Below are positions 5,164 to 29,203 of a stretch of DNA of 64,000 nucleotides, in pieces. The DNA comes from Turritopsis dohrnii. Lineage: Eukaryota; Cnidaria; Hydrozoa; Anthoathecata; Oceaniidae. The notes beneath the pieces are model-generated. The model ran no database searches. It was not told where the DNA came from and was given only the letters and a program-made list of their open reading frames with translations. How positions within the stretch are numbered: position 1 is the first letter of the stretch; every line of letters begins with the position of its first letter. The translations under genes and the position numbers were made by a program. The stretch covers positions 868,001 through 932,000 of the forward strand of contig BQMF02000029.1 in assembly GCA_027922465.2 (NCBI GenBank), in the 5' to 3' direction.

Positions 5164-5388
5164 TTAAAACAAAGGACGACATTATCTAAGCAATGGATCG
5201 TGGCGAAGTTACTGTAGCTGTCATGGCTGATTTCTCCAAAGCTTTCGATACTGTGGATTTTGAGATATTGATACGTAAACTTCACTCCCTGAAATTTTCA
5301 AAACAGACTATGCGTATCCTCGCAAGCTACGTCATCGTTACCAATATGTGCAAATCAACGAACTATCTTCAAACCATCTACCAATCAC

Positions 5389-7311: not shown

Positions 7312-7700
7312 GAAGTTGACGATCGGACTTCTTTTCTACATTCTTTCGGCTGCCACCCTTATAAACTGCCGTAACGGTTTTAGGCAATTTTTTAAAGCGC
7401 GGCAAGCGGAAATAGGTAGAGTTTTTTTTTTTCTGGCTATTTTTTCATACCCTTTCATACTATGAAGACTTTTTTGAATACCACTCAAGATTTTTGTAGT
7501 TCCTGGATCACCACGTTATTCTTATTGTTACCACGGTAATATTATCAGCTACCACGGTAATATGATCAGCTACCACAGTAATATGACAACTCCACCACGT
7601 TAATCTTATAACTTGTATCCATTCAATACCGTTAGCTATGCTATCAGATTATCAGATTTTAAATTAACTACCGAGGTTTCAATCATTTTGAACATTTTGT
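7312..7700. other. No gene seen
   Basis: AT-rich sequence after the LINE tail. A short direct repeat of the unit TACCACGGTAATATGATCAGC occurs three to four times at about 7530-7605. Nothing else is recognisable. Confidence 0.5.
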
Positions 7701-7713
7701 AGCTCATGCAATA

Positions 7714-8055
7714 CAGTCAAACCGGAGTTCCTATTTAGCGGGCATTTTTCTTATAAATGGACTCTGAATTGCAGTCAAACTCTTATGTCTCTTAATAGCG
7801 GACACCTCCTTACAGTGGACCCTGTTTGTGTCTCCCGAATGGAAGGTTTGCCCTTTGGAAAACTTCTATATAGTGGACAGTGAAAAAAACTGTAATAAAT
7901 TGTTACTATGTAATAAGTTATTCGTAACGTTCTCTGTTACAGGAGTTTCCAAATGACAACTACTGAGGCGTTGAGAAGCCTGGATGAACTGCTCACTCAT
8001 GCGCAAAACCTAAATAACGATTCCTTATGCAAGGGTTTATCAGAGGCAATTGGCT
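7714..8055 (+). pseudogene. Degraded pogo/Tigger-like DNA transposon end
   Basis: From 7714 the text reads CAGTCAAACCGGAGTTC with TAGCGGACACCTCC repeats, the kind of terminal sequence found in pogo/Tigger elements. A short frame near 7950-8055 (TTEALRSLDELLTHAQN) resembles the C-terminal tail of Tigger transposases. No DDE core is present. A related end lies at 42783-42890. This is a weak call made from family resemblance only. Confidence 0.35.
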
Positions 8056-8059
8056 AAGT

Positions 8060-10680
8060 AGAAAAGTCTAAAATAGCTAAAACGGGTGGGTGAATTAGTT
8101 CAGATGAGGCAATCCCTTACCACCTCAATCGCAGCATCAAGAAGGATTTCGTTAATCCAGCTGCTTATTGTTTCAATCAGCGCGTGGTTTATAAGGTTTG
8201 CCATGCGTGATAAGGGGAGTTACGCTCAAGAACGTCACTTGATTCCTATGCTTCTGGTATTCTTGCCAACCTGAACACGCAGAGCAGAATTATCAATGAT
8301 TGAATGTGTGACTTGCTTGTGATAGATATATCGTTCTTCACTTTCACATCTCAAACTGTGAACAATTTAGGTTTACTTTGGCGTGTAAATGTATAAGCCT
8401 TTGAAGAACGTTTTGACAAGTGGATGATCTGAGTCTAAATACTAATTACGCACATAGCTGACATATAGCAAAAAGACAGTCGCGAATCATCCAAGGAGAA
8501 TAGAAAGTTGATTGGAAACAGATTGCTCATCAAAATTTCTGGAGATCAGGACAAAGATACCTGGGATCAGTGTCCGTTAAGTGTCTAGAGAAGTGGTCAG
8601 CTACTAAGTTTTTTCTAGGTACGTCTGCTCCGATCTGCCCTAGGTGCAATCAAGATGATACTTTTGCTATTCACTAATATCGAAAATATTTCAAAATTAC
8701 ACGAGTAAGAAACAAGTTCATTACTAAGTTAATAACGAGCGTGATCTTCATCATCTGATCAACGCGTCTCAATAAAAAAAGTCTTTTCCCAAGCAAATTC
8801 AATCGCAAAATGTTTTTACGTGGGTGACTAGTTAAGTGTGATGGTTTAAGTCTGCAATTTGTTTTGTAAGAAAGAGTCCATCATCAGTCATAATGGATAG
8901 AATGGCAGCTTGAAATCCTTATGATTATTCTCGTAACAAAATTTCCTAGGACCAGCTGCCGTGTTAAGTATGTTCTTGCAAACGTAGATTTGTGTAACAT
9001 ACGAAATTTTGCATGAATTCCTTAGAAAAACCTTCTTCTTTCAGCCAGCCACTTCACGCCTTTGAAAGTCAGTTTAATAATCGGTTAGTTGGACGGAATA
9101 GGCGGAATAGACCGCAGTGGAAGAGTTCTTTTCTCACACCAAGTCATTGAGATATATGCACATAAAAAAGAGTCAGCGGGGTAATGTTCCATTTCTTCAT
9201 ATTGGAAGATCCATTCAACGAACCCATATGTGCCAGACTTGTTTGCATTTATTTATTGTGTTTAGCAAATCAGTTGCTTGTAATGATTAGGTCAACCGGC
9301 TGCTATGAGAGCCATGACGAAGTAAATCAAACTTAGGCTAGATTCCGATATGGAGGCTCTACTGTAAAGAATTTAGAAAATTTTGTCTCACGTTACAACA
9401 ATAAATGTAGCCAATTGAGTAAAAAAGGAGCCCGACTGTTACAATGGAGTCCGTTAGTGTCAAAAAGGAGTCTGAAATTTGTGAAAAGGGAGTCCATCAA
9501 TTCAGGAATTTGCAATTCTCCAACGAGTGTTTTCATCAGTTCATGCTCGTACGACAAAAACTCATTAGCGAGTCCTTGAAAAAAATTCCTACCGTCCAGC
9601 GTATATTTTTTTCATCAAAATCTTTTCACGCAATTGGGATAAGACATCCGCTCGCTTAAAGCGATTTTCCAGCATAATGAAATCGATACCGTGTTACTTA
9701 TTGACGCTATTAAGGTATTCAACTGCTTGAACAGGGTTAGGAATATACAATAATGAAATCATGAGTTCCATATCAGCAATCAATCAATACTTATCAGAAA
9801 CCAGCAACCCTTTTGCCTTGCCATGGTACTCTTTGGGCGAAATAACGATTATTGATCAATTTAAAGAACTCTAGCTCACTGTTAAACAAGTGTGGTAAGC
9901 CAACAATGTTAGTGCTGCTAGAAAGCTACGTCCATCCTTCAATTGGTATCAAAAACTTGAAAGTTTAGGGGAAGTTACGCTTATTATGTGATATGATCCA
10001 AGTGTTGGCTTAGAGTCAGAATAATCAGTAAAAGAAACCAGTAAAATATTTGGCAAATCAGTTAAAATCACAGCGAGAGGAAAAGGACATCATGGTGGTT
10101 GTATGCCTTAAAATCGAAAAATTAAATACCAACAAAATCTTTAACCGCGAAATTTTACACTCGCAATTTTTTCCGAGGGTAAAAGCTCTAATATTTTGCT
10201 TATTTCTCGTTTTACTTCCCATTTAGGGAAATTGAATACTCAGATAAAATGTGAAAACTTAAAAATCGCGAAATTAAATACCCGCGTAGTTTTCTGCCTT
10301 TCAGTTAGGTTCTGAAGATTTTCAGTGTGAGTACTGTATTAACATTTTTGACGATTGGGTTAAACAGCTTAATAATTTATGCCAGATCAGTGATACTCAA
10401 CCTCAAGCAGCATTCATTGCATATACTTAAGGATTTAAATCAAAGTTTTCATATTTCCTCAGAATGATTGAAGATTTTCAATCGTTTTCAAATTCCTTCG
10501 ATACTTTACTAAACGACAAGTTTTTCCCCACCGGAGATGATTGTGAAATAATTCGGAATCTCCGTGATCTCCTTTCATTAAATCCATCCGAAGGAGGTGT
10601 GGCAGTGAATGTCCTAACAGTTCTATTCAACAATATAATGATTCCATGAATGTAACCAAAATTCATGTTGACGCCATTGT
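8060..10680. other. Gene-poor region with a GGAGTCC repeat cluster
   Basis: No reading frame here looks like a gene. The only structured part is 9420-9510, where four degenerate units of the form AAGGAGTCCGAnTGTnnn follow one another. They match in order a longer cluster at 27900-28070. The rest is AT-rich unique-looking sequence. Confidence 0.5.
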
Positions 10681-10682
10681 TA

Positions 10683-11182
10683 CACTGAGGAATGTAACTG
10701 AGTCAAATTTGACGATATAAAGGTAGTAATTTACAGTGCCTCTCACGACATCCTTTCCTGAGTCATAGTTACGACCTTAGCAAGTCTTTTTGACCACCTT
10801 TCGCGAGTTGAAATGACTTTTAAAACCCTGTAAATTTGACGACCATAAATAGTCGAATGACGACCTTTCTTGAGTCATATGCACCACCTAAGATGAGTCA
10901 ATTTCATTTTTTTTCGTATCACGACGGTATGCAGTTTAGAATTTTATGTCGTCTCATCACCTGTATCGTAGACCCCTATAATCGTCAATTTTCCCTTTTG
11001 GCGGCTTGTAGCGTTCGACCAGAGGCGAACTCGGAACCTCTGGTATGCCAGCCGAACAAGCTACCGTTATGCCACGTCTGCTTGTTGAAATAGTCAAAAT
11101 AACTACTTTCTGACAACGTGGGTAGTCAATGACAATTCACTACCTGAGCTTAGTCAAAATGACTCAGGTACATTTCTCAGTG
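10683..11182. mobile_element. 500-bp MITE with GAGTCA-rich ends
   Basis: Imperfect inverted ends pair CACTGAGGAATGTAACTGAG with the complement of the right end at about 11163-11182. Both ends hold repeated GAGTCA/TGACTC words. A tRNA-like sequence lies inside at 11005-11076. No target duplication is clear and there is no transposase. The superfamily is not assigned. Confidence 0.55.
11005..11076 (-). tRNA. tRNA-like pseudogene or SINE head
   Basis: Read on the minus strand, GTGGCATAACGGTAGCTTGT matches a tRNA 5' half with an A box. GAGTTCGCCTC near 11023-11034 fits a B box with a disturbed T loop. The acceptor stem does not close well, so this is probably a tRNA-derived relic carried inside the 500-bp MITE and not a working tRNA. 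Confidence 0.4.
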
Positions 11183-12059
11183 CATCCTTCTCCACATTCG
11201 TTTACCGCATGCTGACGACAATTGTCAAAAAAACCATACATCAATCGTGTGCGGTGAATAAAAAAATATTATCCATAAATTCAAAAAACGTAAAAGGTTA
11301 CATGTAATTTATTCAGCTTCGCAGTCTTCATCTTCATTATAACGAATTTACAACGACGCTTTCAAAAGTGACGATACTTGTGGAAAAGTTATTTTCCTTT
11401 TTTAATAAGATGAATTGAATGCTTTAAAAATCCGGAAAAAAACAACAATTGTGTGACGTATTAATCTACGGTATCTACATCTCCATTTTAGTGTAAGAGC
11501 CCTCGTCACATTTTTCCATGTCACTTTCCTCAGAATTTTAACTAGTTTAGGTGTCTTTGTTTTGTGGTAAGTATTAATGATCAACCAGTCTGTAAGGGGT
11601 CAGGGTTCCTACAGCTTCCACAGACCAAAAACGGAACAGGAAAAAAGACTCTTTTTCATGTCACGAGTCTCAGGCTTGAAATTTTTTTGAAAGTTAGGTA
11701 TAAATATCAAGAACAGGAAGACGCAAAATCTGACTAAACATTCGGGCTCCTTGGCCGATCTGACCCCTATATAGATACTGCCTAAAATAGGAAAATGTTT
11801 ACAAAAGATAGGTATATACATTAGGAAAACAAAAATGCAAAAACTGACCAAATTTGAAAATTTGAAAAGACCAAATTAGCAAATTTGAAAAGTGATGCAA
11901 AATCAGTATAGTTACAAAAAAAGAAACAAGAACTTGATATGATTTATAACAACTTACTCGAAGAATTAAAGCCTATTATTCAACAAACCTGTGACAAAGG
12001 TGAAAGTGCAAGGCTAACTCCAAGAGCAACACCTAGATCTTAATAAAGAAGAATTCAGA

Positions 12060-12530
12060 GAATTTACTTTGTGTCATGCAATGACTTGTAAAGGTGGCTT
12101 TGTAGTAAAAAATACATGATACTTTTCGTGATTTCTTAACAGTGTTCTTGAACAAAACTTGTAATGGCGTCGAAAAAAAAAGAAAAAACACTTAATTCCT
12201 ATTAACAAAAACACTTGCGATCTGAAATCTTTAAAGTCTGGTAATGAAGCACGTCTGAAAGCAAGAGGTTTTTGGAGGAAAAGAGAAACTGCATTTTTTG
12301 ATATTAAAGTCACGTATGTTAACTCCGAGTCCTCTAAAAACCCTCGAAGCATCAACACACGAAGATGCTAAGAAACGTGAATATCTACAACAAAATACTG
12401 CAAGTAGAACGTGGATCATTCAATCACCTTGTGCTCGGAACAAATGGAGGAGTGGGGAAGAGTGCCGTAAATGTTTAGTCTGTCTTGCACATGCAATGTC
12501 AGAAAGTCATGAATGTTCTGTTCTGTGATG
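12060..12530 (+). pseudogene. Broken REL-endonuclease LINE tail
   Basis: Pieces in shifting frames match the C-terminal region of the intact-looking LINE tail at 24925-25916. CHAMTCKGGFVV (near 12074) is the zinc-knuckle and following stretch. NEARLKARGFWRKRETAFFD (near 12243) is the restriction-like endonuclease core, followed by IKVTYVN. RGSFNHLVLGTNGG (near 12410) is the segment behind it. Stops and frameshifts separate the pieces. This is an old, dead copy. Confidence 0.6.
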
Positions 12531-12539
12531 AATTTAATG

Positions 12540-14090
12540 ATGGAAATAAGGGAAAATAATTTGATCGGTGAAAATCTGGAAAGTAATGTTTAATGCTAGC
12601 GATACGAACGGAGATTGGGGGAAGACGTACCATTTAGCTAGGGGGTTTGGGGGAATTTTAGATCTTCGGGTTAATTAAAGCCTTTTGGGGGCATTTGACC
12701 TTTTATTTTGAATGAAATTATACTTCATGTCATCGACGATAAAGACTAAAAAATTGAATTATTTTAAGAAATTCGTAGCTATCAAACGATTCGTATCAGA
12801 TTAGAACACTAAAAATAGTTGAACCGAGATAAGTCCTTCTACTGACTGCAGCATACAAATACTTCCTGTTGGTATCTTGACGTCCTCCCATTGGTTGTTT
12901 CATTTTAACGTCGGTTTTCACCGATTACCGACCGTTTTTCTGCATCAATGCGCTAACTAGATTTCCGATCAGATTATAAGACGCCGAAGAAATAAGTTTG
13001 GATAATTTTACTAGTGGAGATTATTATCATGGGAGTTGAACCACGATGTTTTTTCACTGGTCTTCACCTTACTGGCTTTTAAATTTAATGAAATATATGT
13101 GTTTTGTAAATTATCAAGGATACTAATCCCGCATAAAAACCTTTTAAGGTTGAATTTCGTAAAACAACAAATCGCTGCGTTCATGACAAAAACAAAAACA
13201 AATAGTGGAAGAGAAACCGTTTTGTAAATAATTTTTACCTGGGAGACTGGATCTAGAGCATTTTTTCCGTAGTATTTTCTTGTTAATACAAGGGTTTCCC
13301 GGAAAAAACTAACGTCGCCTCTACTTGGCTTTACGTCAAATGTATAAAAAATGACCGAAAAAAAAAAATATATATATATCACTCTTTAAGATAAAAGTGT
13401 TATGCACACTGCGTGTTATATATATGATGAAACCTAAATCAACGTGAAATAGAAAACTGCCCGTAGAAAACGATCTAACGGGTGAACGATCAACCGGCTT
13501 GGAAAAGTGTTTTATATTTATACATATCCCATATACCATGGCAAGCTTGCTTTGCCATGTCAAGGCTCAACAACTGCGCTAGTGTTGGATCCGAGCCTGA
13601 AATCCATATAAATGGTCTCGTACATTATCCTGAAAATCTAGTGTAAGTTCCAAATTGAACCAACATAATCGAGAGTGGATAAAACGATATGCGCTTGATA
13701 GCTATTATGCTATCATCCAAATATGTACGATTACATTGATTGCGTCAATGTTTTATTAATAGCCTTGTTAAGACATAGCATGCATTCTTTAACCAAACTG
13801 TAAAACAACAAACTGCAATAATCTTACTTATAAAGCCTAGGAAAATTTAGTCAGGGTTGTGATTGAAATATGATGGTATCTACTCCTAAGATCGATATTG
13901 TTTTCCGAATGTTCTGAAAACCACTGTTAAGTCTTAGTATTTAACTTAAGGGAATTTCAAATGTTTATTGACATGACCTAGATCTGGAACAAACTGCAAC
14001 CCAGGGTCCTCTTGCCTTTCCAATATGCAGATCCGTATATCGAAAAGGGAAAAGATTTTGAGTTCGAGGTTGTTAAACGCTTTCTTTGAT
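12540..14090. other. No gene seen
   Basis: AT-rich sequence with only short chance frames. A (AT)n run sits near 13370-13380. I see no exon with believable splice sites and coding bias. Confidence 0.45.
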
Positions 14091-14095
14091 TGGTG

Positions 14096-14349
14096 TTTTG
14101 ATTCACAAATGACGTCAACCAATTTTTCAAACTTTTTGCCCCCCCCCCCCTCCCCCCTCGGTCAACCTGCGTCAACTTTGCGTTGCCCCCTCCCCCTCAG
14201 TTGACGTCATCGTTTGAGAAGAGACATTCACATTTTCATAAAAAACTTTTACTTAATTTGAAAAATCAAGGTTCTGAAAACTGTGAAGGTTGACGTCAAC
14301 AGTAGTATCACCTCCCCCCCCCCCCTGTCAACTAGCGTCAACTTTGGCA

Positions 14350-14391
<42 letters not shown>

Positions 14392-14422
14392 CAGTTGACG
14401 TCATTTGTGAACAGTCCCTTAT
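14096..14422. mobile_element. TGACGTCA-ended inverted element with poly-C tract
   Basis: The ends read TTCACAAATGACGTCAACC (about 14099) and GTTGACGTCATTTGTGAA (about 14394-14412). Two internal TGACGTCA boxes (near 14203 and 14291) and long C runs, including about 38 consecutive Cs at 14351-14389, lie between. It may be two short copies side by side. A third, truncated relative is at 46505-46590. The length of the C run is unreliable in any assembly. Confidence 0.6.
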
Positions 14423-14573
14423 TTTGGATTTCCTTTTCTAATGTAAGGGATGAAGAATCTGATACGGATATTCATTGTGCTTACTATTCAAAAAGTCGAA
14501 AAACCATAATGTTAGAAAGGACTATGTTGACTTTCCCTGTGACATCCGCCATTCCTAAATAACAGATAATTCA

Positions 14574-14857
14574 CAACCTCGTTCCCAGGGCTTCTTCGAA
14601 ACGAAGGAAAGCCCTGGCACAGGCTGGTCCATTATAAAATCTGATTGGCTAATGAATTTAAATCATTTTTTTCCAATGCAAATTGAATTCTTGAAAACAA
14701 ACGCCTGACATCTCCATTATAACTCGCCATTTGTTTTTGAAGCACGGAGGCCCTAAAAAGACCGCTGAGTGAGAAAATCACCCATATTTTGGGTGATTTT
14801 TTATCTGCCTTTGCCAGGGCTTTCTTTCCTTTCGAAGAAGACCTGGGAACGAAGTTG
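14574..14857. mobile_element. 284-bp MITE with 10-bp target duplication (MULE-type)
   Basis: Inverted ends about 45 bp long begin CAACCTCGTTCCCAGGGCTT and close with CCTGGGAACGAAGTTG. A perfect 10-bp duplication AGATAATTCA stands on each side (14564-14573 and 14858-14867). A duplication of 9-10 bp is usual for Mutator-like elements. There is no coding capacity. Confidence 0.8.
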
Positions 14858-14867
14858 AGATAATTCA

Positions 14868-17172
14868 TAAAGCAATTATGTGTGCTTGAGGATTGCCGTT
14901 CGATGAAAGTTTTGAAACTGGTCTTGAACCACCCGGCTCCGAACGTTTTCCCTCAAAATGTCCGACTGGGCGTATGTAAAATTCCAGCCTCCTTTGTCCT
15001 GCAAGATCTTTGAAACACCCGGCCAGATGACATCAAGACCTGCTGCAGGAATTTTACGACTAAGAGGTTTGTTGATTCTTCAAAAATTCTAAATGGTCTG
15101 TAAAAATTAAGTCATGAGAGAGTAACATTTTTGTTCCTGTTCCCGGCCGCTGGTTTGTATTGTATTGTATTTTTTGACTCACTTTGCCGGGACTTTTCAA
15201 ACTCCCGCCTGGACATTTTGAGTGAAAATGTCCAGCAGGATATTTCAAAACTAGTCTCAAAACTCCCGCGGGACATCTCAAACTCCCCGATGTCTGAAAT
15301 ATTTGGCCGAATGGTTGAAGGATACATTTTACACCATCTTTTCGCGTAGCTTTTATTAAGGAGTCCGTTGGTAAATTTTTTCCGACACGAAATTTTCCGA
15401 AACCTAATCAAATGGTTCAAATATTGATAAAGTGGAGAGAATAAACATTAAAGATGGCCTAAAGTATGACCTCGTTTTAAAGATTTTAATTGCCTTTAAT
15501 TATCCCACTGCGGAATAGAAATAATAAGTGAAGATTACTAAGCAATAGATGTAATTAGTAAAACAATAAAAAACATAATGAAGAGGCAAATCTTCATAAC
15601 AAGGCATTAACACGGTGTTTCAACAGAAATTCGGGAAAGGTCTATATCTGTTTCACGCTGAATATTTCGTCTATGGATAAAGCTGGTTTGGCTGTACGTT
15701 ACACGTTACAAAGGAGTCCGTATAAGTTGTAAATGCAGTTTATCCGAGGCACCAAACATTTTATAAACATAATCCTCGTAAAGGGATAACCAATGCTTTA
15801 ACTTTCTGATCCATTTCGATGACGTATTGCAAATTCCTTAATAGCCCATAGTTTACCTTTTCAATTCACTTTTAGTTGGCTCTAATGTATTAAAACAACA
15901 GCTGATTACTTAGTACGAGGTCAGTTCAAAAATTTCTGGAATAATCTATAGATTTTCGTTATTCAACTTTTGTGAAACTTCTGATTTAATCCCCCCGGGA
16001 AACATTAAATATATTGAGACAAAGCACAACCCCCACCCGTTGTTGACGAACCACTGTTTTCGAACGTTGATTTAACCAATTTAGCTGGTTATTTGTATTC
16101 CTTTGTGAGATGCCCCTCGAATTTACAAAATAAGTCATTTAGTATTCTATATTCATTTCATGCTAACTGTGTATACTTTCTCAAAAGTTTCTGTAAAAAG
16201 AGTTGTTAAGATGAAATTGTCATTTCAAATGAATTTGAAAGTCATATATGTTTTGAGAAATGTGAAGTTGTAAGGAGGTTTTTGTCAAAAATTAAAGTGG
16301 ATCAAAGGCATTTTGGGCATTCAATCAGTTCCATGAAATTAGTCTAACACCAACAATTTAGTCCAGTACGTGGTCTTACCCGTTGACTCCAAGAGACGTC
16401 AGTAATTCCTTTTAGATTACGAGATTTGGGCCCTTAAATTAGTCATTTGCAGTGACCATCCTTAGATCTTAGAGTAATGATATCTGGGTATAGTGTCTTT
16501 TTCCCAATAGTTTACTGTTTTTCAAGCTTAATGCGTAAAGGCACTTCCCAACTAAGAGTTACCATTTCGTGCGACTAACAGACAGAATTGGGTATTAATG
16601 TATTGACACACAATAAGCCGAAATTATTTGCTCGAATAAAAGGGGACTCAGAGAATTCCATGTCAGCATAATGAAAGTTCAACTACCGTCTTTTTGCTCA
16701 ACCAGAGGTTGTAACCATGTTTATCTAAGTTTGCGAACAATTTAGGTAGTAAAAGCAAAGTAAATGGCCGGGTATTGAAACAAAATACAATCATACACTT
16801 CTACCTTGTTGGAAGAGCAAGCAATAGGTCCTATTGTATACAACCTAATATAAAAATCTTCTCATAGTATTTCAAAACGTGGTTGAGTGTCGTGTTGGGA
16901 GTTTCTTTCCTAAAGAACGTGCTTTTGTTAGAATATCTATCCAGGAAATTTAATGGAACAGAAGTTCATTTACTGATACTCAGACTTGACTGAATAAACT
17001 CTTGTTGTTTAATGAATCACAGTTCAACTCAAATGTAGACGAATCGAAACTATCTAAGGTCAACCTATAATCACTATTTACAACTTCGAAAGAAAAACAA
17101 GAAAAAACCAACTAACAAAGTCTAACAACATAATCCAAACTTTATTGACTTGTTCTACTCTCCTGCTTTCTA
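14868..17172. other. No gene seen
   Basis: Intergenic sequence downstream of the large minus-strand gene. A short dispersed repeat, ACACGGTGTTTCAACAGAA plus about 20 bases, at 15609-15646 recurs at 40061-40096. Near 15190-15300 there are short self-complementary stretches around GGACATTTTGAGTG. No exon is supported. Confidence 0.45.
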
Positions 17173-20100
17173 CTATTTCCTTTTCAATTTTCGTTCATAA
17201 TCTAATCTCGTCCTTAACTGCGAAAAGCTATACTGGGACAAGTCTCCATCTAATGCAGTGCGAATCCTTTGTTCGTTCAACGGACCACCATCAATAATTG
17301 CCTTGCACTTTTTCTTCAATATCTCTATCTCATTACGGGAAAAAAGCCTTCTTCTTGTTTCCGGTGAAGGGCAAAAATTCTGCTAAAAGGTCAAATACGA
17401 AAAGTAATACGAAAGAATCATTAGTCAGAATGTTGTTCATGGCACAGAACAATGCACTGCATTACTGAAAATATGGAATTGTCAAAACAAGTAAGTGGAT
17501 CACAATATCAGGGAAAGAATTCATCATACTTACTAAAGTAGCTGTGCAGCTAGACACTGGTCTTGGTGATGTTGGTAATTGTCTCTAAAAATTAACATTT
17601 ACAAAAAAGGTGAGACCATTGAAAACCATTTGAACGAACGAAATTGAGAAAAAGATCATTTGAAGAATTTGGGGATACCAATACTCTTAAGCAGGTAAAT
17701 AAACTGGGACTTACAAACCTCTATTCTAGGATAAGACTTACTTTGCACTTAGGAGAGTAACGCATCAAACTTCTAACTTTATCATATATCTGTTTCTCAC
17801 TAGTTCCGAAAAACTTTGAGCATTCATTAAATTTCTCTCTAACATCTGCCATAGACACATGATTCCTTTCTATTTCTTCGGAAAATATTCCCTTCAGTTG
17901 AGTGATGTCACTAATGGTCCACAAATGCTTTGGGGATGAGGTAGTCAAGTCTTTGGTGACTACAAAATCAGTTGGAGGTTCGGGAACAGTCCGAAAGTAT
18001 TTCCGAACGATTTCGGCACCTTTAGCTGCTGTTTGTTGCTTTCTTCTAATGAAATAATGCGACTCTGCTGTCTCCAAACTGTGTCCCATTAAGTCTGCAA
18101 CTTCCTGATTAAAGCCTAGACCTTTATCTCGTATGCCTGTGCTTGTTGATTTTCTTATAATATTGCAGGTCAAGTTCTTCACAGGCGTCTTCTCAAATAT
18201 TCCACCCTTGACCCAAAGTTGGTGAATTCTTAGACTGATTTGACCCGGATCCATAGAAGATCCAGTCCAAGACAAGAACACGTTTGGACTGTTCGAGTTT
18301 ATCTGAGGTCGAACTTTCGTGACAAATATGTTGAGCCAGCCATATTCCTCCTCATTTAAAGTTATCGCGGCAGGACCATATGCGTGTGAGGTCTTATGGT
18401 TTTTAACGAAAATTTCATAAACACCATCTACTTTTCTTGCGGCATGAAACTCCGAAACCAAAACGTTTGCCGATACTCCTGATCGATGACCATTAGCAAA
18501 ATGGATCGCCGAAAACAAATGGTCTCTCATCTGACAATACTGTGTTTGCGTAACATTGACATTACTCCTTTTAAGTATCGCAAATAAATCTTTCGCTTTA
18601 ACAGCATGATCACTTTTTTCATATGCTTGGACTTGTTCCGGGGTGACCAACATGGAAAAATCGTCAATATCTCTCTCCCATTTCCGTTTCCGATCCATTT
18701 TTTGATAGCTTTTCTTCCACCCGTTAAGTTTTAACTTCAAATCTAGTATTTGGGCAGAAGACACATCCCTGATCCCAACTTTTTCGGTAATGAGATATTC
18801 GCAGAAGATATCAACAGATAACAGGTACTTTTTTATGGTTCCCGGTAAACTATTGCGAAATTTGCAATATTCCATTAAATAATTATCACGGAAATGCTTG
18901 ATATCGAAAAACATTGAAAAAGGTTGGTTTTTGCATAAAACCAAATATATGCGTTTTACATCATCACTGAGTTGAACGCAAGATACTCTGTTGCCACCAT
19001 CTGGGCTTTGTAGGTATCTTACGAAGCCATTCAAAACAACTTTCACATCCCGTGGCAATTCTGCGTCTTTTGAATCCTCATCTTCCGAAAACAGATCCTC
19101 ATCGTCACTTTCATAATATTTGTTGAGTGATGAAGTAGGTGTAGTGGGTATCTTTCTTGTAGTTGATGAATCTTTATTGGCTTTCGAGAACAACAATCGC
19201 AGAGAATTCGTAACTGGCTCTGATGAATTAGGTGTAGTGGGTATGTTTCTTGTAGTTGAAGAATCTTTATTGGCCTCTGAGAATAACAATCGCGGAGAAT
19301 TCGTAACTGGCTCTGATGAATTAGGTGTAGTGGGTATCTTTACTGTAGTTGAAGAATGTTTTTTGGCATTCGAGAATAACGATCGAGGAGATTTTGTAAT
19401 TGTCTCTGGAAGAATGCTGGTATTAAACATTTGTGCTTCTTTTAGTAGTTTGTAATAGTCCGCATTCCGAGGTAGCTTATGATGTACAAGAAGATGCTTT
19501 GGCAATCTTTTCAATACCTTGTAACAGCCTTTGACAGGGCAAATCCGTGCAAAGTGATAGTCCTTTTGATTTCCCTTTTTTGGCGTTTTAACCTTTGGTT
19601 GCGATTGTTTTCTTAAGGAGAACTGTCCCATAACAGCACCACAGCTTGCCTTCGTCCATTTATGTTTTAGCATCAAATGCCTTGGCAAATTTTGGACAAT
19701 CTGCTTACAGACAGACACAGGACACTGTCTGCTGTGACGGGAAGGGCTAAAATGTTGGATAAACAAATGAAAATACACAAAAAAGGTTTACACAGATAAG
19801 TAATCTCCACATTGAAAACTTACGGTTTTCGCTTAACGTATTGCTCTTTATGAATGGTCAGGTTCTTATCTGGAAAGGTCTGGAATGAAATTAACGAGAA
19901 AAAAATAACAACTAGCTAATGTATCCCTTTGTTATACGGAATTGCAAATATAATAATAAAGATGTAATGTAATGTCATCGGATCGATAGCGCAGTCGGTA
20001 GAGCAATCGCCCCGCAAACGAGAGGTCGTGGGTTCAATCCCCACTAGATCCGTTACCTTTACGGAAAGTTCTATACAATAATAGTGACACTCACATTTGA

Positions 20101-23100
20101 ATTGAACTCCACATGGGCGTTCCTTTCTGTGTCATATACCATAGCAACGTCAGCATTCCATTCCGCGTTATCTATCAAAGCAAGCTTATCATTCCGATCC
20201 TTATTAACTACCATACCAACCTCAACGTTCCGTTCCACGCTACCTGCCAGTTCATCATTCTGTTCCACACCACTTACCATAGCAACCTCATTGTTCCGTT
20301 CCACGTCATCTACTATAGCAACCTCAACGTTCCGTACCGCGTAATCTACTACAGGAAGTTCATCGTTCTGTTCCACACCACTTACCATAGCAACCTCATT
20401 GTTCCGTTCCACGTCATCTACTATAGCAACCTCAACGTTCCGTACCGCGTAATCTACTACAGGAAGTTCATCGTTCTGTTCCACACCAATTACCATAGCA
20501 ACCTCATTGTTCCGTTCCACGTCATCTACTATAGCAACCTCAACGTTCCGTACCGCGTAATCTACTACAGGAAGTTCATCGTTTTGTTCCACACCAATTA
20601 CCATAGCAACCTCATTGTTCCGTTCCACGTCATCTACTATAGCAACCTCAACGTTCCGTACCGCGTAATCTACTACAGGAAGTTCATTGTTCTGTTCCAC
20701 ACCAATTACCATAGCAACCTCATTGTTCCGTTCCACGTCATCTACTATAGCAACCTCAACGTTCCGTACCGCGTAATCTACTACAGGAAGTTCATCGTTC
20801 TGTTCCACACCAATTACCATAGCAACCTCATTGTTCCGTTCCACGTCATCTACTATAGCAACCTCAACGTTCCGTACCGCGTAATCTACTATAGGAAGTT
20901 CATTGTTCTGTTCCACACCAACTACCATTGCAACCTCATTGTTCCGTTCCACGTCATCTACTATAGCAACCTCAACGTTCCGTACCGCGTAATCTAGTAT
21001 AGGAAGTTCATCGTTCTGTTCCACACCAACTACCATAGCAACCTCATTGTTCCGCTCCACGTCATCTACTATAGCAACCTCAACGTTCCGTACCGCGTAA
21101 TCTACTATAGGAAGTTCATCGTTCTGTTCCACACCAAATACCATAGCAACCTCATTGTTCCGTTCCACGTCATCTACTATAGCAACCTCAACGTTCCGTT
21201 CCTCGTTATCTGCCATAAATTGTTCTTTCTTTCCATCTTTCCATTCAACGTCTTTAATATTTAATATTTCCTTTAGTTCCGCTTCCAATGCTTCTTCAGA
21301 TGCAACTATAAATAATATAAGACTGAAATTCGCTGGGCAATCTACCAATCGGGAATACTGAAAGTGAAAGCTTTACCTTCTTCGTCTTCACTCTCAGGTC
21401 TTTGCCATATCTGCTGTAAGTATCTGCTGGCCTGTAACAAAAAGTAACAAAAAGTATTAATAATTTTTAATAATAATGGGTTTCAAAAGAATTGCAAATA
21501 AACCAAATGGTACCTCGGAATGGCTAACATTGGCATATAAGCAATACAATAACACCATACTTTCCGGAAATAATACTTTGAAAACGTAGTCAAAATACTA
21601 AAAAGAAACAGTTCAACGTAGACAAAACATCAATTTGCTTCCGAGGAATACCTTATCTTCTGAATGTAAAAAAAGAGTCCGACCCACCAAACGAGAAAAA
21701 GAAGTCTGATACTATAAGAGCTGTTTCGATCGTAAAGCACGAAGCAAATTATTGAAATTTCAGTAAGTAAAAATAAACTATTCTACCTTCCTCCGTTCAG
21801 CGGGACCAAAAGTTTGCAGGATTTTATCCATGATTGTACTTTCCTGTTCTTCTGTATAAGGGGAGCATACGTCAACAACTCTTAACCTCCCTATGCCGAA
21901 TTAAGCTGCAATTTAGACGAAACACTTTTTTACTATATAGTGAAGATTTAAGTGAGTTACCTTTCTGTTTACCACCTGCCTTGTATTGCTGATGTCGTTC
22001 ACAATACGTCTAATAAAGAAAATAATATAAATAGTTTTTAGGAACTAAGGTTAACAATCTGGAATTGAAGTTACTCAATGCTGGACTATACCTTCCCAGT
22101 AAATATACATAAAATTTGACTGTTTAGATTATCCATCATTTCTTTGATGGTCTCAATGGGAACATCTTGCACATTTCTGAAAATGCATAAAGTTTTTATT
22201 TTATTGGGGTTTCAGAAGATATAGTTAATAAACAAGCCTGAGAATACATCCAATATTTACTTGTATTTTTTCCAGCTAGGGCAAGCAACATTATCTTCAC
22301 CCTGTAAGATAACCTTTTTAATGTAAAAGATATGCAGGGCAGGCAAAAAGGAAGACATTTAAGAAGACTTAAGACTAAATTAGGACTAAAATAACATTAA
22401 TCTCACCATGGTAGCATATAGCATCGCAAAACTAAAAGGGAAAGGACATGGTAATAGTAGCTTTAGTGACTATAGATTTCGACATGAAAGAAAATGTTTA
22501 ATACTCCAGATAATTCCATATTTCAAAGTCTAAAGTAAACTAAAGATTCATAAGAAAGAGAACCAACTACCTACATTGAAGAGTTCGTATTAGTTTTTGA
22601 CCTGAGGTCATCGATGACTTGATAATTCAGTGGGTTGGTTGCATAATTTCTATGCTCAGTTCCAGTCAAATGCTAAAACAAAAAAACTAATTTAAGGCAA
22701 GAGACTGTGGTAAGAACTTTTGGGAAGTTTTTCGATAAGTAGTTTTCGAAGAAGGGGAACTGAAATGAGTAATTTTTGGTAGAATATAATTTAGTACATC
22801 TGCGGTCATGTTCAAAACTGTAATGGGTAAGTCTTTCATAACAAATACCTCATTTAAGTCTTCAAACTTTGTGTCACAGCATTCACAGTAGCCATAGTCA
22901 TTGTCATTTCGAATTATTCTTTCGGGATACTGAGACTCCCCAGAACTGGTTGAAATTGAAGGAAATTTTCCCTCATAGAAAAGTGGACAACTTAAACTGA
23001 ATGAATAAATTTAAATGTTTATCTGAAATACATCATAATTTAAATATAAAATAAACAGCTAACCATTCTTTGTCTTCAATTTTGAAGAATGGCTCTTTCA

Positions 23101-26100
23101 GTGCTGTAACTTTAGCTGCAAAGGAATGAAACAACACCCTTAAACATATCACCACGAATTGTTGTTGGAATAGAAAACTTCTTTTTATCAGTTTGTGCTT
23201 ACCAGAATTGGGCATTAATCTTTTTAGAGCAACCTACAAGGATAATTTTGACATGTATTTCACTTTCATAACCATTGACTATTTCCATAAACATGCAATG
23301 TTCATTGTTGGATATATGCCTGCAGAGAAGAATCCCTACTAAACAAACACAATCTGTACATAAGTATATACATACTCTACAATTAGGTTCCGAGTTTGTT
23401 TTCTCAATCGCAATAACCTAACATGAAAATAAAATTAATGAAGATGGGCAAGAAAAAGAATTCCTACATATTTGCTAAGAAAAAATAAAACAAAATAGAC
23501 CCCATAAAGTCCAAATGATAAGGTAAACATAAGAACTTGACCATTAACCATTAATATAAAACAACAAGAAAGTTCTTACCTGTACATCACTCTCAGAAAC
23601 AAACTCTATCTCCACTTCCTAAATGAAAAAGTATGCTAACAAAAGATCTTCAAAGAAACATAAAACTAATCAAACAAATCTATCTGATTTTTTTTGTCAA
23701 ATTAGGATAAAAAATAAAAGATTGGATTGCATACCACTGGTTTGAAACATGGAGCACAATACCTAACCTAAAATTACAATAAAACATATCACGATAATAT
23801 CGATCTGATATTATAACATTATATATATAAAAATGGTATTACATACATCTGACCGCCACCATAAATCATTGGATATATAGCTGTATCGCAATTCACAGCC
23901 AGGAAGTATATCCACAATGGCCACCAAAAATAAATGGGGAATGTTTCCCACCACAAATTTCTTCAAAAGACAGTTGGCCAATTTTGGTGGAGAGTCATTG
24001 ACAAATCTTCCAAGACTTGTTGACAAAGTTGTATCTATACTAAAAATAAGATATACTGGGGTGTACATATTTATGAAGTATAATGAAAAACTATTAGAAC
24101 ACAACTCCCCATATAAAAGGTAAATCAGATCAGTTCCATTGGTTAACATTCTTTCTTACAGAAAAATATGCATAATACATCACATTTCATAATACAAATT
24201 TATTAGATGGGTTTATTATAACTTCTCTGTTACTTGAATTTAAAATAGAGAGTAGTAAGAGTAAAAAGGTTTATTATTACCTTTGTGCACAATAGCAAGT
24301 CTTATATTCTGTAATTACAATATCCTACCTTAACTTTTCTTCTTTAAATATCACATCAAACATAGAGCAGTTAATTTTTCTTTTTCGATACTTTAAAGCC
24401 TGCTGCTGCGCTTGCTTGTTTTTTAGTAATGTTCCCCTCATCTCCAACAATGGCTGTCCTTTCTTGATGGATGTGGCAGTAAAAACACCATAGCCTATGA
24501 AAGGGTTTTTATATCATTTTTAAATCAAATAGTAACTTTTCAGTGTCAAAGGAATTTTCTGAATATTTTGTCTTATTGAGAAAGCTGAGCTACATCGCAC
24601 TTGTTTATAGGTTGGCGATGAACCAATCTATAAAAATAAGAGAAGAAAAATACTATCCTTCAGGCAGTATTCAGATTAATTTTTTCATGTTCATCATATA
24701 ACCGTCATTTAAGCAACAATTAAATACAACAATTGAATAAACATTATTTATTTTACAGGTATATAATTTTGGCAAAGTTAGTCCTCTTTTTGATTAACCG
24801 GAAGTTGTTAACGCTCATCATCCTTGCTGCAGTTTGCAGTAGAATGAGATTATCTGTAATCAATACATAGTGATAACTTTTAAGGCTCACCTTTATATTT
24901 TTCTTATTACATTGAACAGTCTCAGCCAAATCCATTTATCTGAGTATGAGAACTCCATCAACATCACCCAATCGATCAAAGGGAAACTGAAGAGCCACCA
25001 GACAATCTACGAAGAGATCCCCCAAGATCAGATCAAAATCAAACTGAAAATCCGAGCAGCCAAGCGTAAAGAAAATCAAAAGCGGCTCGAGGAGATCAAA
25101 AATGAAGTGCAATGTCCATTGAAGAAGAAGTCAATTGAGGCATCCACCGAAAATGGCGCATCACTATGGTTGACAGCAATACCAATCAAATCAAACAATT
25201 TCCATCTCGAGAAACAAGCATTCTGGGATGCAATTTTCATCCGGTACAGCATCCCGTTAAAGCGTTTACCGACAACTTGTGTTTGTGGTGCACCATTCGA
25301 TATCCAACACGCGATGAACTGCCCCCGTGGTGGCTTCATCATCTCAAGACATAATGAACTACGAGACCTGACGGCCGAAATCGCAAGAGAAGTCAGCAAC
25401 CACGTTATCGTCGAACCAACGCTCACTCCACTAACGGGTGAACAATTGGTGCACAAGTCAGCCATCAAAAGCGAAGGATCCAGAACCGATGTGGCAGTAA
25501 GAGACTTTTGGGTCATAGGACAATTAGCATACGTCGACATAAGGGTTTTTAACCCATTAGCTAAAAGTTACCTGAACCAGAGTCTTCAAGCTGCACACAA
25601 GAAAAATGAAAACGAGAAGAAGAGAGCCTACAACGAACGAATCCAAACAATTGAGGCTGGTTCCTTTACACCCCTCGTCTTTACGTGCTTCGGAGGAATG
25701 AGTCGTGAGTGCGATCGTTTCTTCTCTCACGCAGCAACCCGAATTGCCGAAAAACGAAACGTTGCAAAATCCATCGTGGTCAACTCTCTTCACGCAAAAT
25801 TGAACTTTTCACTACTACGCTCATGTTTGTTATGCATAAGGGGAACAAGAACGAATATAAACCCCATTGAACTCTCCGATATAGACTTCGCCGAAATGGC
25901 ACATAACTTGAACTAACCAATGAATATTCAATATTATCTTTTTCTTGGAAAAATTTTCATTTTAGGTTAAATATACTGTACACATTGTAAAAAAAAAAAA
26001 AAAAAAAAATTTATCTTGTCAATGTTGTTATTCAACTTTGTATTCCCCTTGAGATATATCTATCTTTTTCTTGGCTACTTGAGGAAAGTACCTCACTTCT

Positions 26101-27770
26101 TCATCATCGTACTATCCCATATCACACTAACTGATTTCATAGCTCTGAAAACTCTGATAACAGTTTGCTTATGACCCTGTTTTCTTATTGACTAAGATTA
26201 ACATGCTTTATAATTAAATCAAATAATCACGAGTAGTGCTCCTCAAGGTAAAGCAAATTAGTTTTCAGTTTGAAAATCAAGTAACATATATATCTCTTCT
26301 AAGGCTAACTTGCTGTGGACAAAAGAGTTTTGGTAGCTATCACAAATCTACTAATGGTTATATTGATGATTTTCTAAGTGATATAATGTTTATAAGCATC
26401 GGTGTTTTTAGCTATGAGTTTCAACATAATGCTGTATAGACATGCATCTTCACTGGCAATTAGATGCTCCCTATACACTTCAAGATTTTGTCGGTTAAAA
26501 TGGTTATCAGGAGGCATTTTTAAGACAAATAAAATAATAAAAACTAATACTCATTAGCACTCATAATCCATTTTTGTGAAGTTTGTTTAGATTTTAAACA
26601 GAGCTTTCACTGGTAACATCAGAACTCATCTATTATATTATATATTTATATCATTTTAACTGCACGCACATTCTTAACTTAATTGATCACGATCTTTATT
26701 CAAACCTAACCTCTTGTTAATTTTAATTTTTAATTTTTTTCTCTAAATAAACGTTCAACATTTGTATCATTTTTAACTTGATAAAGATTATGTAAGATAT
26801 CGAAAATTTGTGAAGAGATGTGTTTTTAATTGTTCATTATATGTAATATATTTTATCAGAAACAGCATCAGCATCAGGTGTAGTTATAGAAAATATAAAA
26901 GAATAGAAGTGAATAATCTCGAAAGCTTGACATTCAAAGTGTAGTTTTATAACTAAATAACTAAATTTCTTAAAAAGTTCATAGTGGGGAAATGGTTCAT
27001 TGCTGTCTATTTTAATTAGCTAGACATTTACTGGCTTGTCACATCCAAACATCTGAGCTGAGTGAAAAAACAGCACTATACTCTCACTTGATCGCATCAA
27101 AAAGATTTCTGGCTGTGTTTGAACATCAATGTAACTTTATACATACAAGTAGCTTATAAGTCCTAATATTTAAGGGTGGCCTCCTCCTCTCTCAACTAGT
27201 CCTCGTAGGTGTTCGTTCCCCTACTAACATAGACAAGTTTACAACTTCCTTACTTTAAAATAACAATACTATGTTATTTTATAAATATGATTGTAAATTA
27301 TAAATTTTGTAGTAATTAATATCCAAAGCTTCTTTTTCTTGTAAATTTATCAGTAGGGACAACCGTAAATAGAGGGATCCCGTAATTACGGGATACATCC
27401 CGTAATTAAAGGAATTTTGTTTGTTTTGAATCTACGGTGAACACACTTCCCCTGCAAGACTTGGAACTGTTTATCTTTGTTGGTGAAAATAAACTACTAT
27501 TACTACTACACTACTACCACATAAATTTGACTGGCTGATCAAACATATATATACATACCTATATGACTATCAATATATTTTTTTATCAAAAATGATGGGT
27601 CACTGTTGATCAACGATTTAATAACTGTATCTTCTTGATTCTAAAAGATGATGCGAGTTAAATAAAAAAACAAAAAAAGAAATTATATAATAAACATAGC
27701 TAGCAAGTGTTTATCAAAAAGAGTTATATGCTTGACAACTCACAACAGTCTGCTGAACTTTTTTTTCCAT
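17173..27770 (-). CDS. SET + DBF4-type zinc finger + tyrosine recombinase multidomain protein
   Basis: Exons in transcript order: 27744-27770, 27559-27640, 24329-24494, 23847-24039, 23735-23767, 23580-23618, 23376-23417, 23203-23233, 23064-23115, 22849-22996, 22575-22672, 22407-22431, 22261-22301, 22092-22176, 21961-22009, 21787-21890, 21377-21431, 20095-21305, 19824-19879, 17742-19746, 17534-17584, 17173-17382. All joins use GT donors and AG acceptors, all phases agree, and 4803 nt give 1600 residues with no internal stop. The start ATG at 27770 follows an in-frame TAG 24-27 nt upstream-side with no other ATG between. Domain order: SET (about 36-156), Cys-rich RYCAPCFKP (158-166), DBF4 motif M and CCHH finger (about 213-285), 36-residue repeats (about 445-800), two C2H2-like fingers (about 853-920), recombinase core (about 1180-1430), SANT-like basic tail (about 1470-1600). 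SET domains methylate lysines and tyrosine recombinases cut and join DNA; the joint function is unknown. It could be two adjacent genes, but nothing in the exon phases suggests a break. Confidence 0.75.
17742..19746 (-). other. C2H2-like fingers and tyrosine recombinase exon
   Basis: Exon 20 begins with two related finger-like motifs, CPVSVCKQIVQNLPRHLMLK and CPVKGCYKVLKRLPKHLLVH. Three 31-residue Ser/Thr-rich direct repeats follow (about 19130-19420). The catalytic core holds Arg in GHRSG (codon at 18483-18485), Lys in KNHKTS, the box NIIRKS (Arg at 18153-18155; His replaced by Asn), His in LMGHS (18081-18083) and Tyr in ESHYF (18054-18056). Spacings of 24 and 9 residues from box-Arg to His and His to Tyr are normal for tyrosine recombinases. 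The set is complete apart from the His-to-Asn change. The closest class by feel is Crypton-like. After it come two SANT-like segments (WTISDITQLKGIF, then RRLFSRNEIEILKKK in the last exon). Confidence 0.8.
19980..20052 (+). tRNA. tRNA-like sequence (Ala CGC by position), intron of the SET/recombinase gene
   Basis: A tRNA-length sequence with a perfect A box (TAGCGCAGTCGG) and a good B box (GGTTCAATCCC). The T stem pairs GTGGG with CCCAC. Acceptor GGATCGA pairs with TAGATCC except for one position. The anticodon stem has only three pairs and position 33 is C, not U. By alignment the anticodon would be CGC. No T run follows closely. It is probably a tRNA pseudogene or SINE head and less likely a working gene. 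It lies antisense in the intron between exons 18 and 19. Confidence 0.45.
20095..21305 (-). repeat. Coding repeat exon: nine 36-residue units (108 bp)
   Basis: Exon 18 of the multidomain gene (404 codons). Nine near-identical units run from about 21210 down to 20230. Each unit consists of three related 12-residue sub-repeats ending in an Asn: VEVAIVDDVERN, NEVAMVIGVEQN, DELPVVDYAVRN. The array is acidic and has alternating hydrophobic residues. The middle copies differ by only a few bases, so the array has been homogenised recently. Flanking divergent units (AGSVERNVEVGMV and following) show the older edge. The donor is GTGAGT at 20094 and the acceptor TAG at 21306. Confidence 0.85.
22575..23115 (-). 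other. DBF4-type motif M and CCHH zinc-finger exons
   Basis: Exons 9-11. EPFFKIED (residues 212-219) fits motif M of DBF4 (PFxKVED). The finger reads GYCECCDTKFEDLNEHLTGT then EHRNYA: Cys259, Cys262, His272, His278, spacing C-x2-C-x9-H-x5-H, the DBF4 finger pattern. YQVIDDL follows as in DBF4. In DBF4 these motifs bind and activate the replication kinase CDC7. Here the BRCT-like motif N is missing and the partner domains differ, so this is either a borrowed module or a distant DBF4 relative. CDC7 binding is an untested inference. Confidence 0.75.
23847..27640 (-). other. SET-domain exons of the multidomain gene
   Basis: Exons 2-4 encode the SET fold. The opening motif is GYGVFTATSIKKGQPLLEMR (residues 37-56), matching the G-x-G-V-F start of SET domains. 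The closing half has SLGRFVNDS, PHLFLVAIVDI and ELRYSY, which line up with the pseudoknot motifs GR(L/F)xNHS, the I-A-x-x-DI strand and ELxYDY. The general layout is closest to KMT5A/SETD8-type domains. The usual NHS is NDS here, and the last motif lacks the Asp of YDY, so activity is uncertain. No post-SET cysteines are seen; a Cys pair follows in RYCAPCFKP. Confidence 0.75.
24925..26009 (+). pseudogene. REL-endonuclease LINE, 5'-truncated copy with poly-A
   Basis: The open frame ending at 25916 encodes the C-terminal part of a non-LTR retrotransposon with a restriction-like endonuclease. There is a zinc-knuckle CVCGAPFDIQHAMNCPRGGF (near 25280), then GSRTDVAVRDFW and AYVDIRVFNP, which carry the two Asp of a PD-(D/E)xK-like site (near 25475-25555), and GSFTPLVFTCFGGMSRECD behind. 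The reverse transcriptase is absent. A 3' UTR and a poly-A run (about 25990-26009) follow. It sits in intron 2 of the SET/recombinase gene in the opposite orientation. It is well preserved, so the insertion is fairly recent. R4/Dong-like clades carry such domains. Confidence 0.75.
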
Positions 27771-27889
27771 TTTTGAAAAATAATCTAAATCAGATAAACA
27801 ACACTAGCTAAACTTCTCAACCAAAAACGTCTGTTCGCCTCTCTGCCGCTTGAAGGACCTCCATTATGGAAGCGTACGCGATATTGCCG

Positions 27890-28075
27890 GCTACCGATAA
27901 CGTGTGGAAAGGAGTCCGATCGTGTACGAATGGAGTCCGATCGTGTACGAAAGGAGTCCTAGAGTACAAAAGGAGTCCGAACATATTGTTAAAAAGGAGT
28001 CCGAATGTAACAATGGAGTCCGTTAGTGTCAAAATGGAGTCTGAAATGTGTACAAAAGGAGTCCATCAATTTCGT
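27890..28075 (+). repeat. Degenerate 20-23-bp tandem repeat around GGAGTCC
   Basis: About eight units of the type AAAGGAGTCCGAnTGTnnn lie just upstream of the start of the minus-strand SET/recombinase gene. The last four units appear in the same order at 9420-9510. Single units also occur near 15360 and 15706. One frame through both clusters stays open (MESVSVKxESExCxKGVHQF), but no gene is attached. It could be promoter-proximal or the core of an unrecognised mobile element. Confidence 0.6.
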
Positions 28076-28687
28076 TTTTATTATTATTAAAGCATTTTTC
28101 TTTTGTTATGATCACAAAATCTTTTGAACTCGTTAAGCAAAAGTACGCGCATTTAGTTCCCAAAACTTTTACCTTAAGAATTTCTAACGACAGAAATTAT
28201 GTTTGAACTCATCTGATTGTGTTTGTAAACGTGTTGTATTGTTGCATGCGTTAGTTATACCATGATATTTTCCTCAATAACTTTCGGAAGAATTATCATT
28301 TTGCTTCAAATTTCATATTTTCAGAAAGAGCTTTTACGTGGTACGTAAATCGCAAAAATTTGACGAATAATATTCGAAAAAACGCATTGTGGATAAAACA
28401 TTGTTAGACACACTGTATAACTTACTTTTCCTATTTCCCAGTGAAGTAATGAAAAGAGTTGTGAAATGTTAATTAGTTATATTTTCGGTGAAGCTATGAC
28501 ACAAACAGTTTAAAACTTTCATTAAAGATGAAATTTTGGAAATTGAATTGCATATCCTCCTATTAAAGTTTAAATGTTTTCATGAATTGGATGGGAGATT
28601 GGGATTTGACGAACCTATTAGTAGTGAAATGGAATAAAAAAAACTATTTCTTGTAAACAAACGTGAAAAAACAGAAAATTAAATAAA

Positions 28688-29203
28688 ATGAAGGAAGCCT
28701 TAAGAAAAACTTCAGACTTTCGGGAATCGTTAGGTTGGGTTGAGCTGCAAAGAAAATTAAATCAGTGCGCTAGTCCTTGTTCGAATGTTGAAGATGCGGA
28801 CATGCATTCACACATAAGTTTACCACTGTTAGTCAAAGATGATGCTTTTTCACCAAGGCGACAAAATTGCACGAAATCGGAACTGGGAATCGGTAATCGA
28901 AGAAATCGAAGGAACACAGTTGCGAGTGCAAATGAGTTTTTCAATGTTACTGGTAAAACAAAACTAAATAAAAATCGTAGGAATTCCAATATTCAATTTC
29001 AAGTGGGAGAAAGTTTTCCAAATCTTCATAGCTCTGAAAAGTCAGCTGAGATTCGACGGTGGAGTGTGTCAGTGACGAAACAAACAATCGCCCAACCAAC
29101 AGTCAACCTGCCAGCTATCAAGGACCTGCAACTAAGCAGGCACGAGAAAGTAAAATGCAGTCCTGAATTTGAGAAGGTGTTTGAATTATTTAGAGACTCG
29201 TAG
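28688..29203 (+). CDS. Unknown protein, 171 aa, single exon
   Basis: A single open frame with coding-like composition starts at an ATG in an A-rich context (TTAAATAAAATGA) and ends at TAG. I do not recognise the family. It is hydrophilic and basic, without signal peptide or membrane segment. Visible patches are RNRRNTVASANEFF and EIRRWSVSVTKQT, both Ser/Thr next to arginines as in kinase sites, and a C-terminal FEKVFELFRDS. A polyadenylation-like ATAATAAAAC lies near 29497. It is divergent in direction from the minus-strand gene that starts at 27770, with about 0.9 kb between. It could be the last exon of a longer gene. Confidence 0.55.
   Translation: MKEALRKTSDFRESLGWVELQRKLNQCASPCSNVEDADMHSHISLPLLVKDDAFSPRRQNCTKSELGIGNRRNRRNTVASANEFFNVTGKTKLNKNRRNSNIQFQVGESFPNLHSSEKSAEIRRWSVSVTKQTIAQPTVNLPAIKDLQLSRHEKVKCSPEFEKVFELFRDS

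Follow-up and report, generated by a model that had tools for sequence, protein, structure and literature searches.

An intron-bearing, multi-copy mobile element of Turritopsis dohrnii that likely encodes SET, DBF4-type and tyrosine recombinase modules in one gene

The 64,000-nucleotide stretch of Turritopsis dohrnii DNA analyzed here (the window) holds one copy of an intron-bearing, multi-copy mobile element of about 20.8 kb. The element is likely an intron-bearing tyrosine-recombinase DNA transposon that carries chromatin and replication modules, all in one gene. The order of parts along this gene is a SET domain, DBF4 motif M, a DBF4 zinc finger, a middle domain, a repeat array, two C2H2-like fingers, a tyrosine recombinase and a C-terminal domain. 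A first-pass annotation of the window had placed a SET domain, a DBF4-type finger, a 36-residue array and a tyrosine recombinase in a single gene, and this composition is borne out at the sequence level by Pfam matches, an 8.9-copy array, the predicted fold and one open frame. The same annotation considered the domain order undescribed, and we found nothing like it among the literature matches listed.

The gene had been proposed to run on the minus strand from 27770 to 17173 in 22 exons, with 4803 nt in frame, and we rebuilt it from the listed splice sites and frames. Between 24494 and 17173, 20 GT-AG exons (4694 nt) were rebuilt, with phases that all fit and a single stop at the end. The two remaining 5′ exons would account for 109 nt. 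The candidate first coding exon (27744-27770; MEKKVQQTV), placed by its frame and donor position, is putative. Its ATG at 27770 falls within the element, and positions 27750-27949 are kept in 16 copies. We treat the 5′ pair, including the splice to 24494, as a putative part of the gene. All exons lie on the minus strand. The SET domain is encoded by two exons (24329-24494 and 23847-24039), followed in the splice model by linker exons at 23767-23735, 23618-23580, 23417-23376 and 23233-23203. The motif M exon (KVTALKEPFFKIEDKE) lies at 23064-23115 and the two zf-DBF exons at 22849-22996 and 22575-22672; the second of these, if unspliced, reads into an in-frame stop at 22573-22571. After exons 22431-22407 and 22301-22261 come the middle domain exons (22176-22092, 22009-21961, 21890-21787, and 21431-21377), which are homologous to frames of intron-poor relatives discussed below. 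The array exon (20095-21305) encodes the 36-residue repeats, a 108-bp unit present 8.9 times at 20249-21211, and array length varies between copies of the element. An exon placed by the splice model (19824-19879) precedes the exon that encodes both C2H2-like fingers and the tyrosine recombinase (17742-19746). Two C-terminal exons (17584-17534 and 17382-17173), also from the splice model, carry the frame to the stop at 17173. Within the recombinase exon, upstream of the recombinase domain, a 93-bp unit is repeated three times (19128-19408).

Splicing between the zinc finger and the array was assessed by dynamic programming over the stretch 22575 to 21305, with 60 shuffles and four penalties. 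The best in-frame splice chain exceeded 60/60 shuffles at penalties 4, 6 and 8, and at penalty 10 it was equalled by 2/60. For this stretch, the original assertion that chance could not give such a frame is borne out at three penalties and less clearly at the fourth. The best chain also differs from the hand-made one: at penalties 4 and 6 it drops 22301 and 22176 and takes an acceptor at 21851 instead of 21890, and at penalties 8 and 10 it retains 22431 and 21431 only. Codon scores favour exons 22301, 22009, 21890 and 21431, and not 22431 or 22176; for exon 21431 a second frame has a slightly higher score. Alignment with intron-poor relatives supports 22176, 22009, 21890 and 21431, and in this alignment no counterpart was found for exons 22431 and 22301. 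Because these two exons together amount to 66 nt, omitting both preserves the frame, and we consider them doubtful members of the gene.

On the spliced protein, the SET domain (PF00856) was recognised at 1.1e-10 (42.3 bits against a cut-off of 22.4) and the finger (zf-DBF, PF07535) at 1.5e-16 (60.5 bits against a cut-off of 24.8), with both scores taken from an early hand splice that differs from the final model at exon 23233-23203. Taken singly and unspliced, the SET and zf-DBF exons fall below the Pfam cut-off. Among solved sequences in the PDB, the nearest to the SET part is KMT5A/SETD8 (1.5e-8) and the nearest to the finger is human DBF4 (8.6e-11). The SET domain is common to KMT5A-like methyltransferases and this protein, but the NHS motif of KMT5A/SETD8 is not; it reads NDS here (Asp for His), with both paired tyrosines kept. 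Motif M, which precedes the finger, is a weak match to human DBF4 (4.3 bits) and could be aligned in three relatives. Motif M followed by a zinc finger is also the order found in DBF4, the activator of CDC7 (PDB 4f99). The protein differs from DBF4 in that the other DBF4 parts were not recognised, and in the SET domain in front and the recombinase behind. Protein-library searches for SET-DBF4 relatives covered lengths of 860-2735 aa and 212-675 aa and returned none in either range.

Pfam gives no match for the recombinase exon itself, and PF00589 is matched by two of the 13 aligned proteins. Its predicted fold (mean pLDDT 68.8, pTM 0.46) matches XerA, XerH, lambda Int and Cre in Foldseek, with a best E of 2.8e-5 and TM-scores that are low over the query (0.17-0.27 in the top 36 rows; 0.17-0.24 where E is up to 0.001). 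Catalytic positions were compared in an alignment of 28 sequences, made up of the window sequence, 12 proteins from the library and 15 frames at least 700 aa long, taken from 15 of 20 genomic loci described below. Among sequences with a letter at the position, the first R is kept in 27/27, K in 27/27, the second R in 25/25, H in 25/25 and Y in 23/24, and the first H of R-H-R-Y is replaced by Asn (22/25) or Thr (3/25). The identity of this domain as a tyrosine recombinase is supported by the modelled fold together with the kept catalytic residues; a PDB profile search with the recombinase alignment did not find an integrase. Scoring of 7987 candidates from the protein library gave 12 relatives of the exon (best 49%). 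Those with names come from Hydractinia, Hydra and Clytia, and the viral contigs searched gave no match. The Hydractinia protein P0001 also matches the last exon (63%). By eye, several of the library frames reach back into a T-rich stretch just ahead of the first finger or continue past RYSP, a pattern consistent with introns in the same positions. Repeat arrays recur at about the same place in relatives, with unrelated units: the long repeat of the DBF4-bearing relatives L021, L022 and L027 is a different one (ESGWESETRSTKGRHKRA...), and a further repeat precedes the fingers of Clytia P0012.

The zf-DBF domain has 52 matches in the same 436-Mb genome, and 20 of these loci were fetched with up to 10 kb around each. 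The DBF4-to-middle part was matched at all 20, and the finger/recombinase part at 19. At 11 of the 20, a single frame of 1018-1394 aa runs without interruption through the DBF4 part and the recombinase; these 11 loci make up three families, and in two of them (L016 and L026) the recombinase is cut short. Because the uninterrupted frame is shared by so many loci, the join is not an annotation error, and judging from these frames the region from DBF4 to the recombinase is one gene. No SET domain was found in the intron-poor families, either by tblastn at the 20 loci or by Pfam in 4.7 kb upstream of two of them. Five of the intron-poor frames start directly after a splice-acceptor-like TTTTTATTTTTAG, so upstream exons are probable for these. 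The DNA upstream of the frame at L018 has a weak PHD-finger match (E 0.0076, below the cut-off), and the chromatin module at the N terminus may vary from family to family.

Matches to SET exon 2 in the genome number 18 with at least 93% amino acid identity, among which C226 carries a stop, together with two at 85-86% and 25 at 40-60%. In 12/12 near-identical copies, the gap from SET to recombinase is 3549-4093 bp. Linkage was then counted, within 15 kb, between the 25 diverged SET exons, to the exclusion of the 18 near-identical rows and the two at 85-86%, and 44 diverged recombinase hits, which are those of 89 recombinase rows that remain once rows with at least 84% identity and smaller second pieces are excluded. 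At five loci a diverged SET lies upstream of a diverged recombinase on the same strand, at 7.1-10.7 kb, against an expected 0.019, a figure that overstates the odds because it treats loci as independent when there are probably just two families. At C145 and C313 the recombinase is 74-75% like that of the window, and at C824, C158 and C291 it is 44%, with nearly equal scores; by these likenesses the five loci probably form the two families. For the remaining 20 diverged SET hits, the rows listed contain no recombinase placed in this way, and these hits may be other genes. We infer from the linkage that SET belongs to the element, and the join of SET to DBF4 would follow from phase, splice sites and this linkage.

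The uninterrupted frames at 11 of the 20 loci, and the homology of the middle exons to them, argue against an element with two genes, in which SET (or SET-DBF4, ending at the stop after exon 22672-22575) would be followed by a separate recombinase gene. What favours two genes is that this exon reads into an in-frame stop, that the NCBI-named relatives P0001, P0005, P0010 and P0012 appear by eye to be without a SET or DBF4 part, and that the library searches yielded no SET-DBF4 relatives. The intron-poor families without SET in our searches, the linked SET-recombinase loci that are probably just two families, and the hand-model exons passed over by the splice chain count on the same side, as does the trans-splicing of leaders in hydrozoans. 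The exons from SET to motif M nevertheless keep phase and have good splice sites, and we regard the two-gene arrangement as unlikely. A break in the gene before the recombinase, the case that the first-pass annotation had named as refuting its model, is accordingly disfavoured for DBF4 by the frames themselves, and for SET the join goes by phase, splice sites and linkage. We continue with a single gene, from SET to the C-terminal domain, within a mobile element.

Including the TTA letters shared with the flanks, the element occupies 7305-28089 (coding on the minus strand), with the left limit read from three copies and the right limit from 14 scored copies; without those letters its body is about 7311-28074. 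The left end (7305-7337) consists of TTATTA followed by AGAAGTTGACGATCGGACTTCTTT. The window, C14 and C94 agree from TTATTA AGAAG at 7305 and differ before it. The right end (27907-28089) has subterminal repeats of ~21 bp that are rich in GGAGTCC (27907-28064), then CATCAATTTCG (28064-28074), and then a TTA tract, the last base before the tract being at about 28074. A right-end probe is present in 16 copies. For the right limit, 40 of 361 candidates were scored with an outer limit of 28480; of the 14 scored copies, 10 end exactly at 28089, one at 28085 and one at 28106, and the window and C94 continue together. Close to the left end, ACGATCGGACTTCTTT (7319-7334) is inverted relative to the right-end repeats, matching at 15/16 positions with a score of 27 versus a best of 25 in 300 shuffles. 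TTA tracts flank both sides in the copies read, and because TTA is common to flanks and ends the crossover point cannot be placed. The right flank of the window from 28088 (28088-28419) is another dispersed repeat, found at at least 21 loci at 72-80%. In the left 10 kb (7296-17173, both strands), Pfam recognised no protein.

The recombinase exon is complete at at least 12 places, at 99-100% amino acid identity, in addition to broken and diverged ones (89 rows in all, from a genome search in which 66 of 542 candidates were scored). The complete exons are free of stops and differ from that of the window at 0-9 of 2004 nt. Around this exon, the longest piece that each of 11 further copies shares with the window measures 4.4-5.0 kb, with its introns, and is 98.1-99.8% identical. 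Since the copies keep their introns, they spread as DNA and not via spliced RNA. Further 3′, C14, C94 and C318 are 97.9-100% identical to the window, and C477 falls to 92-97.5% in 3′ non-coding sequence. The spacing from the right-end probe to the SET exon ranges from 2536 to 8353 bp in 11 copies, which indicates separate insertion histories. Variable positions among the 12 copies comprise 10 synonymous ones over ~429 sites and 12 in changed codons over ~1575 sites, a hint of purifying selection on the recombinase exon.

The first-pass annotation had left the choice between a domesticated recombinase and an intron-bearing mobile element. The mobile alternative is the one that fits the near-identical, intron-containing copies with a common right end and different flanks, and copies with boundaries at many loci, which had been suggested as a check, occur at at least 12 places, with a common right end in 12/14 scored copies. 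A single domesticated host gene, which the many introns and intact frame might suggest, is scarcely credible in the face of 12 near-identical complete recombinase exons. An assembly artefact or a segmental duplication, in place of transposition, has in its favour that some copies lie near contig ends and that C94 and the window have a right flank in common (501/501; to at least 28691) despite their differing left flanks. The right end is nevertheless the same in 12/14 scored copies, the left flanks of the three copies are all different, and copies differ in array length and by separate internal insertions, so that artefact or duplication is very improbable. Transposition of an intron-bearing DNA element remains our reading of the copies. 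Two other sequences were noticed within its introns. In the array-finger intron, within the stretch common to 12 copies, Rfam gives a tRNA match (19980-20052, plus strand, 45.2 bits), whereas ARAGORN found no tRNA in the window. In the 5′ intron, a frame at 24843-25990 (plus strand) resembles by eye the 3′ end of a LINE with poly-A and has no Pfam match; C542, C477 and C226 are ~0.8-1.2 kb shorter in this intron, which would fit absence of the LINE-like piece.

No such element is named among the literature matches listed, from a search to which Repbase and most subscription papers were external. The closest known systems are the Cryptons, which are likewise eukaryotic DNA elements with a tyrosine recombinase as the recombining enzyme; they are known in cnidarians and a circle intermediate has been proposed for them (PMC3212892). 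The present element is set apart from them by its length of about 20.8 kb, its numerous introns, the SET and DBF4 modules and the repeat array, by a C-terminal domain whose exons are conserved in Hydractinia P0001 and which, according to PMC3212892, animal Cryptons do not have, and by Asn in place of the usual catalytic His of R-H-R-Y. Cryptons have short direct end repeats and no terminal inverted repeats; here there are TTA tracts on both sides in the copies read, and 16 bp near one end match the repeats of the other in inverted orientation. The first-pass term "Crypton-like" is fair for how the element works; actual membership among the Cryptons would be tentative, with the C-terminal domain speaking against it. 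As in Cryptons, no reverse transcriptase of its own was found, with no Pfam match in 7296-17173 on both strands, 17173-24302 and 24300-28801 on the minus strand, or 18093-28090 on the plus strand. DIRS/Ngaro retrotransposons carry reverse transcriptase and RNase H along with the recombinase; the present element does not fit them, as no such Pfam match was found in the scanned frames and the copies keep their introns. Retrotransposons carrying cytosine methyltransferases are reportedly mobile elements that acquired a chromatin-modifying enzyme, but they involve DNA methylation and reverse transcription, and the present element SET, DBF4 and a tyrosine recombinase. Starship elements of fungi are large DNA elements with a tyrosine recombinase; compared by description only, they differ in that the host here is an animal and no cargo gene was recognised. 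SETMAR, according to the portion of PMC8704517 consulted, also joins SET to a transposon enzyme, but is a host gene with an inactive mariner transposase, whereas the joined protein here is encoded in a mobile element and its recombinase residues are mostly kept. The terms "Crypton", "SET domain" and "DBF4" were not found in the accessible part of a review of giant transposons (PMC6431247). A paper on the Hydractinia sex locus (PMC9926710) has separate entries, in the part consulted, for a SET-domain gene and for a gene described as DBF4 zinc finger-like.

In the mechanism that we propose, the recombinase would bind GATCGGACT-type repeats, inverted at the two ends, and cut there. The element would be joined into a TTA tract by strand exchange, with a circle, like the one proposed for Cryptons, as the most likely intermediate. 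More tentatively, the DBF4 part might serve to dock CDC7, a kinase of the host, and the SET part, whose nearest sequence is KMT5A/SETD8, might methylate a histone or another protein. Together, the two modules might couple the DNA of the element, or its site, to S phase or to the initiation of replication. Whether marks would be written on chromatin at its targets, as the first-pass annotation suggested, is a matter for a SET domain that has Asp where KMT5A has the His of NHS. H4K20 methylation by KMT5A helps origin licensing. It is conceivable, as a speculative extension, that the element carries its own replication-start kit, with a KMT5A-like SET and a CDC7-calling DBF4 fused to the recombinase, such that licensing and firing take place on the excised circle or at the new site and the element increases in number during S phase. 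A link of this kind might account for the gain in copies of an element with a conservative recombinase, and copy gain by cut-and-join recombinase elements would become directly testable. If the proposal is correct, this is a DNA transposon with a histone-methylase-type domain, a piece of a replication-kinase activator and a recombinase in one protein, and an intron-rich gene that moves together with its introns. It would also be a natural fusion, found in an animal, through which site-specific recombination is connected with chromatin state and with the timing of replication.

Other repeats occur elsewhere in the window. Two 650-bp inverted copies (1943-2592 and 5388-6037) are 99.8% alike and are perhaps the ends of another transposon. 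Frames at 44390-45672 (minus strand) resemble LINE reverse transcriptase by eye. A 50-bp tandem repeat with AACGTT motifs at 52490-52737 is related to the sequence at 50219-50402.
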